Part shown: positions 47,135 through 55,756 of the stretch, one piece after another
Layout: each line of letters opens with the position of its first letter
How positions within the stretch are numbered: position 1 is the first letter of the stretch
Source: Acetivibrio alkalicellulosi
GTDB lineage: Bacteria; Bacillota; Clostridia; Acetivibrionales; Acetivibrionaceae
Direction: 5' to 3'
Length of the DNA: 64,000 bases
Assembly (NCBI GenBank): GCA_008125075.1
Contig: VLTH01000001.1
Coordinates: 780,671 to 844,670 of the forward strand
The notes under the pieces: model-generated
Told to the model about the DNA's origin: nothing
Seen by the model: only the letters and a program-made list of their open reading frames with translations
The model's database searches: none
Program-made: the position numbers and the translations under genes

Positions 47135-48922
47135 ATGAACAATAAGCTTATAAATCTTACAATTGGAGCATTTTTACATGATATCGGAAAAATTATTTTC
47201 AGATCATCTAATCAAGATTCTAGATCACATCCTTTATCAGGTGAAAAATTTGTAGAAACAATATTCAATGAGCCTGAAATTCTTGAATGTATAATGTATC
47301 ATCATAAACAAGATATAAAGAATTCTAAAATTAAAGATGATTCATTGGCATATATAGTTTATTATGCTGACAATATAGCATCAGGGGCAGATAGAAGAGA
47401 AAAGGAAGAAGATGAATGGGGTTTTGATAAGTATACACCACTTAAATCAGTATTTAACCTGATGTTTAATAATTCGGCTAAAGAAGTATATGACCTAAAA
47501 GAAACTAGAGATATTAATTTCCCCAAAGAAAGTGGAATTTGCAACCAAAGCATTTATAATAAAATATTTAATGATCTAGACAAAGGTTTAAAAAGTGTTA
47601 ATTTTGACAAAAACTATATAAATTCATTAAATGAACTATTAGAAGCTCATCTTTCATATGTTCCTTCTTCAACATATAAAAAAGAAGTAGAAGATATATC
47701 ACTTTATGATCATCTTAAACTTACTGCCGCAATATCTTCTTGCACATACAAGTATTTAGAAGCAGAAAGTAAAACTTCATATAAAGAAGTTTTGTATGAT
47801 AATGAAAAAGATTTTTATGATGAAAAGGCATATTTAATGTTTTCCTGTGATATTTCAGGTATTCAACAGTTTATTTACACAATTTCAAGTAAAGGGGCTT
47901 TAAAATCTTTAAGAAGTAGATCATTTTACCTTGAAATAATGCTTGAACATATAATGGATATGCTTCTTGATAAGTTTGAACTAACAAGAGCAAATCTTAT
48001 ATATACAGGTGGTGGACATGCATATGCACTTTTTCCTAATACAAATGAAGTTAAAGAAGAATTACAAAAAGCAATGAAACAAATAAACAAGTGGTTTTTG
48101 AGAAACCTCGAAACATCTTTATTTATTGCATATGCTTATGAAGAGTGTTCGGGAAATAACTTAATGAACAAACCACATGACAGCACTCCCTATATAAATA
48201 TTTTTAGAAATCTATCCTCAAAAATTTCAAAAATGAAAATGACAAGATATGATCTAGAAGATATAAATATGCTAAATAAAAATATCAACTCTTACAATGG
48301 TAGAGAATGTAAAGTGTGCTCAAATATTAATTCAATAGTTGAAAAGGATGCTTTTAGTGATGAATATAACGTATGTGAAAATTGTAACATGCTATACAAA
48401 ATGTCATCTAAACTTATAAAAGATAATACATTGATTTTAACTGCTAATTCTAAAATTTCAAAGCTTGAAGATATTTATATGCCTATGCCGTCAATATCAG
48501 ATTGTGATAATTATATGTATGTAATATCAGAGAATAAAGCTATTGAACTTCTTGCAGAAAATGTTATGAGAAAATTGCAAAGACCAGATAGAAACGGAAG
48601 AATGACATTTGGAAAACTTACAACATCAAAAATTAGAAACATATTGTCCCTTGTAAATGAAATATACAATAAAGTAATTTTTAGTGATGAAAAACTTGAT
48701 GAAAGAATTCAAAATGAAATAATGTATATGAAAGTAAGACTTATTTATGAAGCCGGTAGAGAACATGAAAAAGAAAAGCCTGTTGGCGAATTTGCAAAAA
48801 AATCTGATATCATAACTGCTATTGACTTTATTGGTGATGATAAAAGAAAGTTTATACGTTATTCAAGATATTTAGAAGCACTGGTGGCATATTTTAAATT
48901 TTTAGGTGGTAAAGACGAATAA
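47135..48922 (+). CDS. Cas10(Csm1)-Csm2 fusion lacking the cyclase palm
   Basis: 595 residues. Residues 1-110 are the Cas10 HD nuclease domain (His15-Asp16 in FLHDIGK; HPLSGEKF; MYHHKQD). Residues about 200-370 form the first palm, with GGGHAYALF (292-300), the normal non-catalytic form. Residues 392-417 hold a CxxC...CxxC zinc finger. From about 474 onward the sequence is Csm2: LTTSKIRNILSLVNEIYN, MYMKVRLIYEAGRE, and DDKRKFIRYSRYLEALVAYF with terminal GGKD. The second palm with GGDD and the D4 domain, together about 270-300 residues in usual Csm1, are missing. No separate csm2 exists. The fused protein could therefore supply the large and small subunits but not cyclic oligoadenylate. ATG 47135 has AGGAGGGGG; TTG 47081 has no RBS. 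Confidence 0.85.
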   Translation: MNNKLINLTIGAFLHDIGKIIFRSSNQDSRSHPLSGEKFVETIFNEPEILECIMYHHKQDIKNSKIKDDSLAYIVYYADNIASGADRREKEEDEWGFDKYTPLKSVFNLMFNNSAKEVYDLKETRDINFPKESGICNQSIYNKIFNDLDKGLKSVNFDKNYINSLNELLEAHLSYVPSSTYKKEVEDISLYDHLKLTAAISSCTYKYLEAESKTSYKEVLYDNEKDFYDEKAYLMFSCDISGIQQFIYTISSKGALKSLRSRSFYLEIMLEHIMDMLLDKFELTRANLIYTGGGHAYALFPNTNEVKEELQKAMKQINKWFLRNLETSLFIAYAYEECSGNNLMNKPHDSTPYINIFRNLSSKISKMKMTRYDLEDINMLNKNINSYNGRECKVCSNINSIVEKDAFSDEYNVCENCNMLYKMSSKLIKDNTLILTANSKISKLEDIYMPMPSISDCDNYMYVISENKAIELLAENVMRKLQRPDRNGRMTFGKLTTSKIRNILSLVNEIYNKVIFSDEKLDERIQNEIMYMKVRLIYEAGREHEKEKPVGEFAKKSDIITAIDFIGDDKRKFIRYSRYLEALVAYFKFLGGKDE

Positions 48923-48949: not shown

Positions 48950-49615
48950 ATGTATGGAAAAATAAGAATAAGTGCAGAAATAGAAATAAAGACAGGTATG
49001 CATATAGGAGGTTCAAATGCATATTCGGCAATAGGTGCGGTAGATTCACCAGTAATAAGAGACACACTGACAAAAGACCCGATTATTCCTGGGAGCAGTC
49101 TTAAAGGAAAGCTAAGGACACTTTTAGCAAGAAGTATTTCTCAAAGTATAATTTTAGAAAAACATAATAATGACCATGATTCTATAAAAAGGCTTTTTGG
49201 CTCAAGTGGAGACAAAATAGGAGACAAAATAATTAAGTCTAGATTGATATTTTCAGACTGCCCTTTAAAAAACAAAGATAAGTTAAAAGAAGTAGGAAGT
49301 ACTGAAATAAAATTTGAAAATACAATTGGAAGAATTGATTCTGTTGCTAATCCACGTCAAATAGAAAGAGTAATAAGAGGTGCAATCTTTGATTTTAAGT
49401 TGGTTTATGATATAGATAATAAGGATGAATTAGAAGCTGATATGAAAAATTTTGCACATGCTATAAAACTTTTGCAAATGGACTATTTAGGAGGTCATGG
49501 AACAAGAGGATATGGAAAGGTAGATTTTTCAATTATAGATATTGAAGTTATGGAAAACTGTATTAACCAAGACGAAAAGGCTAAAATAATAGAGATATTA
49601 AGGGATGTGGGATAA
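48950..49615 (+). CDS. csm3: Type III-A backbone nuclease Csm3
   Basis: 221 residues, normal length. A Cas7-type RAMP protein forming the filament along the crRNA. Asp32 in SAIGAVDSPVIRD matches the catalytic Asp which cuts target RNA every 6 nt. PIIPGSSLKGKLRTLLAR and GGHGTRGYGKVDF are the glycine-rich RAMP motifs. It keeps the residues needed for RNA cleavage, even though the cyclase part of Cas10 is gone. AAGGAGG precedes the ATG; csm4 overlaps its stop codon (TAATG). Confidence 0.93.
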   Translation: MYGKIRISAEIEIKTGMHIGGSNAYSAIGAVDSPVIRDTLTKDPIIPGSSLKGKLRTLLARSISQSIILEKHNNDHDSIKRLFGSSGDKIGDKIIKSRLIFSDCPLKNKDKLKEVGSTEIKFENTIGRIDSVANPRQIERVIRGAIFDFKLVYDIDNKDELEADMKNFAHAIKLLQMDYLGGHGTRGYGKVDFSIIDIEVMENCINQDEKAKIIEILRDVG

Positions 49616-50604
49616 TGAATTATTGTCTGTTTAAATTATATTTTACAACAGCGCTACATATAGGCAATGCCAGAGGAGTAGCAACACTTTCCTCATCTGA
49701 AACAACAATTAAAAGTGATACAGTTTTTTCTGCACTATGTCACGAAGCACTTCAAACAGGGGGGAACGATTTATTAGATGAACTGTATAATATGGCTTTA
49801 AATGATAGTATTGCTTTATCTGATGCACTGCCATTTAGTGATGAAAAGTATTTTTTGCCAAAACCAATGCTAAAAGTTGATGGAAATCTTAAAAAAGAAT
49901 ACAATTCCATAGAAAGAAAAGCTGCAAAAAAATTGGAATATATCGAGGCTGCAAGTTTTGAAAATTATATTAAATCAATAAATGGTGATGAAGATTTTGA
50001 TATACAAAGTGCTTCAAATCTTTTGAAAAATATATATGTAATAGGAGTAAAAGCTTGTGTTTCGATAAAAGGAGAAGAAAAGCCACAACCTTATCATATA
50101 GGATCTATTTCTTTTAATGATGATTGTGGTCTTTACATAGTAGTAGGTTTTTCAGATGATAAAAACTTGAATCTAATATCAAAGCTTTTAAAAAATCTTT
50201 CTGTAAGTGGTATAGGAGGGAGGAAACGTACTGGTTTTGGAAAATTTGAATTAGATGATCCAATATATCTTGATGAACCATATACAGATAGCTTAGAGGG
50301 TATTAGTAAGCTATTAAATATTAAGGATGCTAAATATAAAATGGCAATTAATTGTTGTTTGCCAAAAGATGAGGAGCTTGAAAATGCTTTAGATGGAGCA
50401 ACATATTCACTTATTAGAAGGGGTGGATTTGTTGAAAGTTATGAGTTCTCAGAAAAACCATTGAAAAGAAAGACATTGTATGCTTTTGACAGTGGATCTT
50501 GTTTTGTAAATACCTTTAAGGGAGATGTTTTTGATGTTTCAGAGATGGGAAATCACCCTGTATATAGGTTTCTTAAGCCATTGTTTATGGGGGTGAATAT
50601 ATGA
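49615..50604 (+). CDS. csm4: Type III-A Cas5-like protein Csm4
   Basis: 329 residues. Two RAMP-like ferredoxin folds are suggested by LYFTTALHIGNARG with SDTVFSALCHEAL, and the second glycine-rich loop VSGIGGRKRTGFGKFEL near residue 205. Csm4 caps the crRNA 5' handle and binds the Cas10 subunit. The C-terminal MGNHPVYRFLKPLFMGV is typical. It overlaps csm3 at the start and csm5 at the end (ATGA), so translation is coupled. Confidence 0.9.
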   Translation: MNYCLFKLYFTTALHIGNARGVATLSSSETTIKSDTVFSALCHEALQTGGNDLLDELYNMALNDSIALSDALPFSDEKYFLPKPMLKVDGNLKKEYNSIERKAAKKLEYIEAASFENYIKSINGDEDFDIQSASNLLKNIYVIGVKACVSIKGEEKPQPYHIGSISFNDDCGLYIVVGFSDDKNLNLISKLLKNLSVSGIGGRKRTGFGKFELDDPIYLDEPYTDSLEGISKLLNIKDAKYKMAINCCLPKDEELENALDGATYSLIRRGGFVESYEFSEKPLKRKTLYAFDSGSCFVNTFKGDVFDVSEMGNHPVYRFLKPLFMGVNI

Positions 50605-51719
50605 AGAGCCATTTGAAAACTATGAATTTAGAAATTGAAACACTATCACCACTTTATATAGGTAGTGGAAAATCTATTAATAAAAAAGAATACATTTATA
50701 TAGAAAAAGGACATAGAGTATTGATACTAGATAATAACAAGTTTTTTAATTTTCTTGTTAAGAAAAATCTAATACCAGAATATGAAAAATTTATGTTAAG
50801 AGAGCAAAAGGATTTATATAAGTGGCTCATTGAATTGAATATAAGAAAAGAAGAATTAGAGTTATTTAAGAGTTATGAAATAAATGCTTCTGATGCAATA
50901 ATTGCTGACAAGACATTAAAAGAGATAAATTTATTTATAAAGGATAAATATATAAAACCTTATGTACCAGGAAGTAGTCTTAAAGGCTATATTAAAACAG
51001 CAATACTTTCAAAATTTATAAGTGAAGATAAAAGTTTCTCAAGTAAAGTTTATCTAGATATGAAAAATAAATTGACAGAAAGAAAGCTTGAATTTAAAAA
51101 TGAAGAAAGAGAAATTGAAACAAAGTATATAAATAAATTACCATTTGAAAGTAAAAAAGAAAGAAACGGTTCTATTAACTCATTAATGAGAGGTATACAG
51201 ATTAGTGATAGTGAACCTATTGATATTGAAAATATTATTCTTTGTACAAAAATTGACTATAAAAAAGATAAATCAAAAAGCGAAATTGATATATTCAGAG
51301 AGTGTATAAAACCAAATACTGTTATAAGACATACGTTTACATATGACCATGATATATTTAAACAATGCAAAATAGATATACAATTTATAAAAAATTCCAT
51401 AAAAGAATTTTATAACATTCAAAAGAAATACCATATAGATAAATTTATAATTGATAATGATTTTGAAAAAATCATTGATGAAGAATACGAAATATATCTA
51501 GGTGGTGGAGCAGGATATAACTCAAAAACACTTTCTTACTCATTAGGAAATAATGATGTATTGCATTTTGTATCAAAAATAATGGATAAAAAGTTTAAGG
51601 ATCATAAGCATTATCAAGATGTTGATTTGGGTATTTCTCCTAGAACATTAAAGTGCACTAAGTATAATAATAAGTATTATATTATGGGACGATGCAAAAT
51701 TTTATTTAATGAAGCTTAA
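50601..51719 (+). CDS. csm5: Type III-A RAMP protein Csm5
   Basis: 372 residues. The N-terminal LEIETLSPLYIGSGKSINKKEY and IKPYVPGSSLKGYIKTAIL with C-terminal YLGGGAGYNSKTLSY show the Csm5 family. It caps the 3' end of the crRNA and helps final maturation. Length and order are as expected. A gap of about 95 bases separates it from cas2, in which a new RBS GGGGCGA starts the adaptation genes. Confidence 0.9.
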   Translation: MKSHLKTMNLEIETLSPLYIGSGKSINKKEYIYIEKGHRVLILDNNKFFNFLVKKNLIPEYEKFMLREQKDLYKWLIELNIRKEELELFKSYEINASDAIIADKTLKEINLFIKDKYIKPYVPGSSLKGYIKTAILSKFISEDKSFSSKVYLDMKNKLTERKLEFKNEEREIETKYINKLPFESKKERNGSINSLMRGIQISDSEPIDIENIILCTKIDYKKDKSKSEIDIFRECIKPNTVIRHTFTYDHDIFKQCKIDIQFIKNSIKEFYNIQKKYHIDKFIIDNDFEKIIDEEYEIYLGGGAGYNSKTLSYSLGNNDVLHFVSKIMDKKFKDHKHYQDVDLGISPRTLKCTKYNNKYYIMGRCKILFNEA

Positions 51720-52213: not shown

Positions 52214-52474
52214 ATGACTGATCGCGAGCTTCTTGAATTGATTGCTAATCAAGTTGGAAAACTTACAAATGATTTTTCTGAATTTAAAAATGAACAGAAA
52301 AAAACAAATAAAGAAATACAAATATTAAGCAATACAGTTACAAGGATAGAGCAAGAACAAGGGAAAAAACTTGATGCTTTATTTGATGGATATATACAGA
52401 ACAATGACAGGCTCAATAGAATAGAAAAGGCTGTAGAAAATCAACAAGAATATATCCTTAAGCGAGTAAAGTAA
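52214..52474 (+). CDS. Small coiled-coil protein between cas2 and cas1
   Basis: 86 residues, almost wholly helical with heptad-like spacing (KLTNDFSEFKNEQKKTNKE, LSNTVTRIEQEQGKKLDALF). It has no membrane segment. Similar small coiled-coil proteins are widespread in clostridia without known function, so it may be a bystander. ATG 52214 follows AAGAGGTG. The position inside the adaptation genes makes a role as a Cas accessory possible but unproven. Confidence 0.7.
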   Translation: MTDRELLELIANQVGKLTNDFSEFKNEQKKTNKEIQILSNTVTRIEQEQGKKLDALFDGYIQNNDRLNRIEKAVENQQEYILKRVK

Positions 52475-52610: not shown

Positions 52611-52715
52611 TGATAAAAAACCATAACCCCGACAGGGGACGGAAACTTTTAACATTCATATCCTTAAACCTCCTAAATTTATGATAAAAAACCATAACCC
52701 CCACAGGGGACGGAA
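52611..52715 (+). CRISPR. Two-repeat, one-spacer mini CRISPR array
   Basis: Repeat 1 (about 52611-52646) and repeat 2 (about 52682-52715) share 33 of 34 bases. Both have a CCCC-NACA-GGGG hairpin, and repeat 1 ends in GACGGAAAC, the typical 3' handle sequence, so the crRNA reads rightward. Repeat 2 is changed at its end (GGAAGG), as in a terminal repeat. The spacer is 52647-52681 (35 bases). The array sits in the gap directly before the cas1 RBS (52724-52730). No longer array occurs in the window. Confidence 0.85.
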
Positions 52716-52735
52716 GGAAATAAGGGAGGGATTTG

Positions 52736-53743
52736 ATGGGGATTCTTTATTTAAACACAGAGGGGTCAAAAGTTCGTAAAAGTGGTGGCAAAATAATTGT
52801 TGAAAAAGAAGGTGAAACTGTTACTACTATACCTTTAGAACAAATAACAGGTGTTGTTATATTTACAGGTGTTCATTTAACTGAGGCTGTTGTTGTTGAA
52901 TTTCTTAAAATGGGTACATCTGTAACATATCTTTCAACTAGAGGTCAGTATTATGGAAGACTTGAATCTGTCCACAGTGTTGATGTTGAAAGACAAATGA
53001 AACAAGCGTTACTTACAAAAGATGGAAAGTTTTGTTTGGATATTTCAAAGGAATTTATTTCAGCTAAAATTCACAATCAGATTACTGTACTACGATGGTT
53101 TATGAAAAACAAACCTGAAGCAAATCAAGGAGAGCTTGATGAACTTAAAATATCATATAATAAGGTAAAGGAAGCAACTACTATACAACAGCTTATGGGC
53201 TTTGAAGGAAACGCAGCAAAAATATACTTTTTATGTCTATCAAAACTTTGTAAACCAGAATTCAAATTTTACGGCAGGACAAGACAACCTCCTAAAGATG
53301 CCTTTAATTCTATGCTTAGTTATGGTTATGCCTTATTGATGTATGAAATATATACAATTCTTGGTTCTCATGGTTTATACCCTTACTTTGGATTTATGCA
53401 TAAACCCAAAAGAGGTCATCCTGCTTTAGTTTCCGATCTAATGGAAGAGTGGAGACCAGTATTAATTGATGCATTTGTACTTCATTTAGTCAATAAAGGC
53501 AGCTTTAAAAGTATTGATTTTGAAGTTGATTCATCAAGTGGTGGAGTTTTTTTAAGAAGAGATCAATCTAAGGATTTTTTAAGTAGATATGAAAAGAGAG
53601 TTTTAACACAAATTAAAAACCCTGATGATGACTCTAATGAGATATTCAATTACAGAATACAATTGGAACATCAAGTAAAAAAGATGGCAAAAGCAATTGA
53701 TAATAATAACAGTGAATATTATAAAAGCTATCGAATAAGATAA
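52736..53743 (+). CDS. cas1: CRISPR adaptation integrase Cas1
   Basis: 335 residues. The N-terminal beta domain (LYLNTEGSKVRKSGGKIIV) and helical catalytic domain with Glu157 in LMGFEGNAAKIYF and the His/Asp block GHPALVSDLMEEWRP are intact. It integrates new spacers with Cas2. ATG 52736 is chosen, with GGGAGGG five bases upstream; TTG 52733 would be too close. Because the mini-array is in its 5' region and same strand, Cas6-type cleavage of the transcript would shorten its mRNA leader. Confidence 0.94.
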   Translation: MGILYLNTEGSKVRKSGGKIIVEKEGETVTTIPLEQITGVVIFTGVHLTEAVVVEFLKMGTSVTYLSTRGQYYGRLESVHSVDVERQMKQALLTKDGKFCLDISKEFISAKIHNQITVLRWFMKNKPEANQGELDELKISYNKVKEATTIQQLMGFEGNAAKIYFLCLSKLCKPEFKFYGRTRQPPKDAFNSMLSYGYALLMYEIYTILGSHGLYPYFGFMHKPKRGHPALVSDLMEEWRPVLIDAFVLHLVNKGSFKSIDFEVDSSSGGVFLRRDQSKDFLSRYEKRVLTQIKNPDDDSNEIFNYRIQLEHQVKKMAKAIDNNNSEYYKSYRIR

Positions 53744-53830: not shown

Positions 53831-54405
53831 ATGTTATCTTGCTTAAAAATAGAATTAGAAAATAAAGGATATAACTATAATATCGGATCCATACTTCACG
53901 GATTTTTAATGCAAAAAATTGATAATAGTAATTATATAGAAATAATTCATCAAAATAATTTAAAACCTTTTAGTCAATACGTTTATTGTGACAAAATAAC
54001 TAACAATCTTATTTGGAATATTTCTACTCTAAATGAAGAAGCTTATGAAAATATAATATTCCCATTGTCAAAATATGAGTTTGATAATATATATCTTGAG
54101 AATAAAAGTTCACATTTAAAAGTCTTTTAAACAAATGGAATTATTTTTCAAAAGACATATCTTTAGAGGATGAGTCATTATTAAGTAACATATGCCTGTA
54201 TACTAAAATATCAAATTACTCATTAAAAAGTACAAAATTTTATCTTGAGAAAACAAAGATAAATTCATTTATTGGACAAATAGCATTAAAAATGAATGGT
54301 CCAGATCAATTAAAAAGAATATCATGTATGTTATTGGAATTCTCAAAGTACTCAAGCATAGGAATAAAAAATTCATTAGGAATGGGAGGGGTTTTATTTG
54401 AATAA
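53831..54405 (+). pseudogene. cas6: cas6 split by a -1 frameshift
   Basis: The 5' part (53831-54130) encodes 99 residues with the Cas6 N-terminal fold (LHGFLMQKID, HQNNLKPFSQYVY). The 3' part, in the -1 frame from about 54121 to 54405, encodes INSFIGQIALKMNGPDQLKR and the hallmark glycine-rich loop SIGIKNSLGMGGVLFE. The frames meet at T TTA AAA (54115-54121), a classic slippery heptamer, so the break is either a one-base loss in an A run or programmed -1 frameshifting. Joined, the protein would be about 190 residues, short for Cas6. Without it, crRNA processing would need another Cas6. The 3' frame overlaps the csm6 start by 8 bases. Confidence 0.8.
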
Positions 54406-55756
54406 AATATTATTCTCACCAATTGGAGATACAGATCCTGTTAGAGGTGGTTTTGATGGTGCAATGCTTCACATAGTTAGACATTTTAAACCTGATATAA
54501 TATATCTGTATTTTACAAAAAAGATGAGTGAAATTGATTATTCTACAAATGTTTATCAAAGATTTATTCATAAAATTAATTCTGATTGTAGAGTAATAAA
54601 AAAACATACAGATATTGAGGATGCCAGCAATTTTGAATACTTTGTACATGATTTTGAAGAAATAATAAATGAAATTGTAAATGATTATCCAGATTGTGAA
54701 CTATTAATAAACGCAAGCTCAGGGACTCCTCAAATGAAAATAAATTTATGTCTATTAGCAGTTACTTCAAGTATAACTCCAACTTTAATTCAAGTACAAA
54801 GCCCCAATAAAGGATCTAATAGAGATGTATCTCATGAAAATGATTATTCTGACTCGGCTTTTGAGAATAATTTTGACAATCTTCCTAATAGTGAAAATAG
54901 ATGTGTTATAAATCCCAATATATTAGGTTTTAGAAAAGCCAAAATTAAGAGTCAGGTAAAAGCTTTAATAGAAAACTATGATTATAGAGCTGCATCTAAT
55001 ATTTTAAAACCAGAAAAAGAACTTTTTACAAAAGAAATATTTTTACTTTTAGAACATGCACGACTAAGGATTCATGACAATTATCATTCTGCAATAAAGT
55101 TAATTAACAAAAATAGTTACTTTGAATTTTTAAAAAATAAAGTATCCTCTGAATTGTGTGATCTTATAGAATATTTGAGTATTATGGGAATTAAGCAAAG
55201 ACAAGGAGAATTAACAGACTTTATATTAAGAATAAATCCATTTATAACAAAGCTTTCACAGATTTATATTAATAAAAGCAAAATACTTAAACTTGAAAAT
55301 ATAACTGATAGAAGAATGAGATTAAAAAGAGAGCTTATTGAAAAATCTAGTCCTGATTTAATGAGTTTTCTTGATTATGAATTTAGTATTAAAAATTCAA
55401 TTGAAGAAGGAAGTTTTAGGGATAATTCTGAAATTGGAGCAACAAATTTAATTATATTATTAAAATATGTAGTGAAAAATAGTTCATTTAATAAGGATGC
55501 AAAAGAATCTCTTTTAATAATACTAGATTTTTTTAAAACTGTTTTAAGAACTAGAAATGAACTAGCGCATAATATTTTGATTACTACAGAGGAAGAATTA
55601 AAAAATGATTTAGGAAAAGATTCAAAGAGTATTTTTAATGATATTTTTAAGCTTGTTAAATTCCTTTTCTCAAAAGAATTATCTTCTGTTAATTTTGAAA
55701 TATATAATACAATAAATAAAAGAGTAATAAAAAAAATGGATAATAGTATTGTTTAA
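54398..55756 (+). CDS. csm6: CARF-HEPN ribonuclease Csm6
   Basis: 452 residues. The N-terminal CARF domain (about 1-170) shows SPIGDTDPVRGG and LLINASSGTPQMK, the ligand-binding motif typical of Csm6. The C-terminal HEPN domain has the R-x4-H motif RNELAH (Arg386 to His391). In standard type III-A systems Csm6 is switched on by cyclic oligoadenylate from the second palm of Cas10. That palm is missing here, so the activator must come from elsewhere or the gene is idle. TTG 54398 follows GGGAGGGG at 6 bases and overlaps the end of cas6. Confidence 0.9.
   Translation: MNKILFSPIGDTDPVRGGFDGAMLHIVRHFKPDIIYLYFTKKMSEIDYSTNVYQRFIHKINSDCRVIKKHTDIEDASNFEYFVHDFEEIINEIVNDYPDCELLINASSGTPQMKINLCLLAVTSSITPTLIQVQSPNKGSNRDVSHENDYSDSAFENNFDNLPNSENRCVINPNILGFRKAKIKSQVKALIENYDYRAASNILKPEKELFTKEIFLLLEHARLRIHDNYHSAIKLINKNSYFEFLKNKVSSELCDLIEYLSIMGIKQRQGELTDFILRINPFITKLSQIYINKSKILKLENITDRRMRLKRELIEKSSPDLMSFLDYEFSIKNSIEEGSFRDNSEIGATNLIILLKYVVKNSSFNKDAKESLLIILDFFKTVLRTRNELAHNILITTEEELKNDLGKDSKSIFNDIFKLVKFLFSKELSSVNFEIYNTINKRVIKKMDNSIV

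Follow-up and report, generated by a model that had tools for sequence, protein, structure and literature searches.

Does the first gene of a type III-A CRISPR-Cas locus in Acetivibrio alkalicellulosi, in which the N-terminal part of Cas10 (Csm1) runs in frame into Csm2, encode a new kind of effector, or does it mark a locus that is being lost? The locus lies in a stretch of 64,000 nucleotides (GenBank assembly GCA_008125075.1, contig VLTH01000001.1, positions 780,671 to 844,670), which is the window analyzed here and to which all positions refer unless another locus or contig is named. The fused gene is made up as follows.

47135-48922, forward strand: cas10-csm2 fusion frame of 595 aa, with an ATG start behind a strong Shine-Dalgarno sequence and the stop codon at 48920-48922
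47135-48556, forward strand: Csm1/Cas10 N-terminal part (HD, Palm-1 and zinc region; residues 1 to ~474), by TIGR02578, PF01966, PF18211 and AF2
48545-48565, forward strand: junction zone (~residue 474/475), lacking roughly 1.0 kb (Palm-2, D4 and the csm2 start) in comparison with relatives, by alignments and interval statistics
48557-48919, forward strand: Csm2 part, complete folded core (residues ~475-595), by TIGR01870, AF2 (pLDDT 92) and Foldseek

At the sequence level the in-frame Cas10-Csm2 fusion is confirmed. In an NCBIfam scan, the Csm1 family TIGR02578 matched fusion residues 7-481 on profile positions 3-463 of 753 (E 4e-128; 429 bits versus a cut-off of 170), and the Csm2 family TIGR01870 matched residues 495-591 over the full profile (positions 1-95 of 96; 79 bits, E 3e-22). 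A Pfam scan of the 595-aa chain detected HD, Csm1_B and Csm2, without Palm-2 (PF22335) or D4 (PF20824), both of which were found by the same scan in the intact, separate Csm1 of two relatives from the same order. Together with the alignments, these scans bear out an earlier note on this DNA, which had described an in-frame join between the HD, Palm-1 and zinc parts of Cas10 and a complete Csm2, with Palm-2 and D4 absent. The Csm1 part retains its HD domain and zinc cysteines and almost all of its conserved residues.

Structure prediction gave the same picture. Modelling alignments that misplaced Csm2 or the zinc region were left out. When the AF2 model of the fusion was overlaid on solved Csm1 chains, residues 2-477 matched them as far as ~residue 463-477, with VIA Z scores reaching 37 and an rmsd of 2-3 Å. 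The isolated tail was modelled with a pLDDT of 92 and agrees with its earlier assignment to Csm2: its top Foldseek matches were all Csm2 (TM 0.7-0.8), and only Csm2 chains scored below E 1e-3 in the structure search. At the junction, the AF2 model of the fusion has a strand passing straight into Csm2 helix 1, with no disorder.

In alignments with two relatives that have separate cas10 and csm2 genes (G019 and G015), Csm1 similarity ends at ~residue 474 (nt 48556) and Csm2 similarity begins at ~475. The junction falls at Csm2 helix 1, and the loss from Csm2 is limited to the N-terminal tail. The corresponding interval in 74 intact loci exceeds the one spanning the junction here by 1002 bp at the median (10-90%: 931-1144), which puts the deletion at ~1.0 kb. 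A single in-frame deletion, as the earlier note had proposed with a size of roughly 850 bp, is still the simplest origin of the fusion, at this larger size. One third of all deletions are expected to leave the frame intact.

The fusion is a singleton in all data searched. In the own genome a single Csm1 scored over the cut-off and a single Csm2 was found, both in the fused gene; neither a second III-A cas10 nor a separate csm2 was found elsewhere in it, as the earlier note had stated for csm2. A survey of 84,980 species genomes, started from an alignment of the fusion's Csm1 part, showed a cyclase motif downstream in 78 of the 80 closest Csm1 loci, the other two being one locus cut by a contig end and one that stops early near a contig end; at none of the 80 did Csm2 lie in the same frame as Csm1. 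In the csm2 survey, in which the fused Csm2 sits in a 630-aa open frame, ~70 other csm2 genes from the order, class and phylum (Bacillota) were all in frames of at most 365 aa, none with Cas10. There was no fusion among the matches listed for plasmids (24 Csm1 records), nor was a Cas10-Csm2 fusion found in phages or viral contigs. The idea that homologues might share the junction thus found no support in any of these sets. A literature phrase search of partial coverage, judged by titles and counts, did not return a Cas10-Csm2 fusion as a natural gene. The Csm1 part is 38-47% identical to relatives, and the Csm2 part ~50%. A different fusion was noted in another Bacillota genome, where a 365-aa open frame (G461:C9:34339-35007) carries two tandem Csm2 domains.

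The remainder of the locus contains the following features.

48950-49615, forward strand: csm3, intact, with the catalytic Asp (AIGAVD), by TIGR02582 and sequence
49615-50604, forward strand: csm4, intact, TIGR01903 over its full length
50601-51719, forward strand: csm5, intact, TIGR01899
51816-52142, forward strand: cas2, TIGR01573
52611-52717, forward strand: minimal CRISPR array, a direct repeat with a spacing of 71, with two 36-nt repeats and one spacer
52611-52646, forward strand: array repeat (36 nt, ending in ACGGAAAC), with the terminal repeat at 52682-52717
52647-52681, forward strand: array spacer, 35 nt
52733-53743, forward strand: cas1, TIGR00287
53831-54130, forward strand: cas6 remnant, N-terminal piece whose frame ends early, by blastp to residues 1 to ~90 of intact Cas6
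54106-54405, forward strand: cas6 remnant, C-terminal piece in another frame, by PF10040 and blastp to intact Cas6 from residue ~147
54398-55756, forward strand: csm6 (CARF-HEPN), frame intact and HEPN RNELAH motif present, by TIGR02672, PF22208 and PF09659

The csm3, csm4, csm5, cas2, cas1 and csm6 genes all score over their family cut-offs, and the III-A families Csm1, Csm3, Csm4 and Csm5 (TIGR02578, TIGR02582, TIGR01903, TIGR01899, all over cut-off) occur together in one operon. In genes and gene order, and in the presence of Csm3, Csm4, Csm5 and Csm6, the locus is like the type III-A Csm systems of L. lactis, S. epidermidis and S. thermophilus, from which it differs in lacking Palm-2, D4 and a free Csm2, in its broken cas6 and in its single spacer.

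Judged from its sequence, the III-A cas6 is a pseudogene, broken by a second deletion. In comparison with eight intact Cas6 proteins, ~56 residues are absent between the two pieces, the C-terminal one of which has 98 residues; a single-base sequencing error was rejected as the cause of the frameshift because of this loss. The lesion alone would not be lethal to the system, since many type III systems use Cas6 in trans (PMC12669027) and the own genome holds two further cas6 genes.

The array lies between cas1 and an 86-aa coiled-coil-like frame (52214-52474), which follows cas2. Its repeat was not found again anywhere in the genome (5.3 Mb) when up to 2 mismatches were allowed. In reverse, the spacer resembles a ribosome binding site followed by a start codon (GGAGG...ATG), and it would therefore target the start of an mRNA. 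A self-targeting spacer was considered as a cause of decay and rejected, as the only match in the genome at up to 3 mismatches was the spacer itself. A search for a phage origin gave one weak match (E 0.4), which is not meaningful, and there was no exact 25-mer match between the spacer and viral contigs.

We consider it probable that this III-A locus is in early decay, and that the fusion reflects a recent in-frame cas10-csm2 deletion rather than a novel kind of effector. By this account a deletion of ~1.0 kb, in frame by chance, would have taken Palm-2, D4 and the csm2 start and left the fusion, and cas6 would have been broken by another, out-of-frame deletion of roughly 170 bp. Synthesis of the fused protein is probably still possible, as the earlier note had argued from the clean frame and the intact Csm2 end. 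The protein is unable to make cyclic oligoadenylate, because the Palm-2/GGDD domain is gone, and it would probably not form a normal minor filament, because each copy of Csm2 would bring 474 residues of Cas10 with it and there is no D4 foot. Free Csm2 from an internal start was considered and ruled out, as no start with a Shine-Dalgarno sequence was found near the junction (best value -4.7, versus about -9 to -14 at the other starts of the locus). In the Csm complex of L. lactis, plasmid interference requires GGDD; when Csm2 is removed, interference is impaired, and cleavage of target RNA severely so (PMC8964682). As Csm2 is here present only in fused form and GGDD is gone, and both are needed in L. 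lactis, we infer that interference by the III-A locus has most likely been lost. Defence would then rest with the other systems of the genome, and csm6 would be idle or fed in trans. The intact frames of csm3, csm4, csm5, cas1, cas2 and csm6, and the well-kept Csm1 part, count against decay. So do the supply of Cas6 in trans, known from many type III systems, and the cyclase-free Cas10 proteins of other subtypes (see below).

Decayed III-A loci are on record in S. thermophilus, with cas10 pseudogenes (strains LMD-9 and SMQ-301), missing cas genes and single spacers (PMC6951406). The present locus is like these in its damaged cas10, its incompleteness and its array reduced to one spacer, but differs in that its cas10 lesion keeps the frame and joins the gene to csm2.

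The good state of the Csm1 part was compared with that of the broken cas6. Of 77 conserved columns in the Csm1 part, one is changed, and that conservatively, a count not above that of intact homologues. Compared with csm3-csm5, the branch of the Csm1 part shows no lengthening. In the cas6 pieces 5 of 32 conserved columns are changed, within the range of 0 to 14 for intact cas6. Neither conserved columns nor branch length thus give any sign of relaxed selection on the Csm1 part, a result that fits youth or constraint alike. One might take the conservation of the Csm1 part as a sign that the fusion is under selection. The clean frame, however, which the earlier note had taken as speaking for the product, is no evidence of function, because the non-functional cas6 pieces are equally undecayed and a young deletion would be in frame in one case out of three. 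A parsimonious reading is that both lesions, in cas10-csm2 and in cas6, are young, the order and age of the deletions being our reconstruction. An open, in-frame fusion should accordingly be taken with caution as a sign of function.

Palm-2 domains are present at two further type III loci of the genome, one of type III-B and one of type III-D. The III-B locus (L042 7721-19788; C2:2256000-2275900 in the own genome) encodes a 524-aa Cas10 with AGGDD, in which an HD domain was not found, and a CorA-type effector; a reverse transcriptase gene adjoins its cas2, cas1 and cas6. The III-D-like locus (L044 13789-19058 and L045 3031-12316, also on C2) encodes a 549-aa Cas10 with EGDD, multi-domain RAMPs and a CARF protein, and a cluster of cas6, cas1, cas2 and reverse transcriptase genes lies a few kb from it. 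By gene content (cas6, large subunit, cas7, cas5) there is also a putative type I operon (L043 8716-12821, C2), which adjoins repeat-rich stretches resembling CRISPR arrays and shares its contig with the III-B locus. The III-B and III-D systems may substitute for the III-A effector, the loss of which would be tolerable because of this redundancy. If decayed, the locus offers a fresh snapshot of the loss of a III-A system in a genome with two other type III systems.

Among the alternatives to early decay the best placed, though unlikely, is a stripped-down but functional effector, in which the Csm2 part would replace D4 at the foot of the complex, Cas6 would act in trans, Csm3 would cut target RNA and HD would cut DNA, with no cyclic oligoadenylate made. 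In L. lactis, D4 of Csm1 stands at the foot of the Csm2 filament, and three Csm2 and D4 form the H ridge (PMC8964682); by analogy, a single Csm2 fused at the D4 position is geometrically conceivable. HD, the Csm3 aspartate, csm4 and csm5 are intact, and the predicted continuity of strand and helix at the junction would suit such a chain. A more distant parallel is found in type III-H, where a Cas11 seems to take the place of the Cas10 C-terminal domain and the cyclase pathway is lost (PMC12669027). The junction, however, is present in no relative found, and a filament of two or three Csm2 copies would need as many Cas10 fragments, as Csm2 exists only in fused form. The Palm-2 helices, moreover, help to bind the 3' flank of the target RNA, which activates Csm1 in L. 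lactis (PMC8964682). The retention of csm6 at a locus without a cyclase and an array with one spacer also speak against a working effector. Of the cyclase-free effector that the earlier note had predicted, the absence of cyclic oligoadenylate thus stands, given the loss of the domain, but the working effector is not supported, given the broken cas6, the single spacer and the singleton status.

In its most specific form, as a one-chain, cyclase-free III-A effector with Csm2 in place of D4, RNA cutting by Csm3 and perhaps DNA cutting by HD, and csm6 served by the III-D system, we regard this idea as quite doubtful. If true, it would amount to a minimal Csm complex of natural origin; if the fusion works, D4 and Palm-2 would be replaceable by Csm2, and one natural deletion would have separated target RNA cleavage from signalling. 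Cas10 proteins without a cyclase do occur in other subtypes that are thought to be active (III-C, III-F, III-G and III-H). Types III-C and III-F have a cyclase-inactive Cas10 (PMC11229360), and there, as here, no cyclic oligoadenylate is expected and HD may remain, but in those standard subtypes it is the cyclase motif that is missing, whereas here the domain is deleted and Csm2 stands in its place. Type III-H is like the fusion in having a small subunit in place of the Cas10 C-terminus, with no cyclase activity expected. It is, however, a subtype of its own, with a distinct Cas10 clade, a separate, diverged Cas11 and no signalling effectors, whereas here we see, once, an otherwise ordinary III-A locus with csm6, in which Csm2 is fused and both parts of the fusion are scored by III-A families.

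A decayed effector could also be combined with a csm6 that is kept because another type III system supplies its activator in trans, which we regard as very unlikely. The csm6 frame and HEPN motif are intact, and two candidate sources exist in the III-D Cas10, with its EGDD and a CARF protein, and the III-B Cas10, with its AGGDD and CorA; EGDD is a motif variant among likely active cyclases (PMC11229360). The putative product of the III-D Cas10 would, however, have to match the CARF domain of Csm6, the pairing with CorA suggests SAM-AMP instead for III-B, and young lesions would leave csm6 intact even without selection. An assembly error, with the deletion absent from the organism, is highly improbable: the junction is known from one assembly, but the genome is in 3 contigs and 99.98% complete, a second, independent deletion lies 5 kb away in cas6, and the fusion is exactly in frame.

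The csm6 gene (54398-55756) has an unusually long branch in comparison with the csm6 of loci with similar csm1-5, with its best match in another locus (L054), which suggests, at the level of sequence, that csm6 was exchanged as a module.
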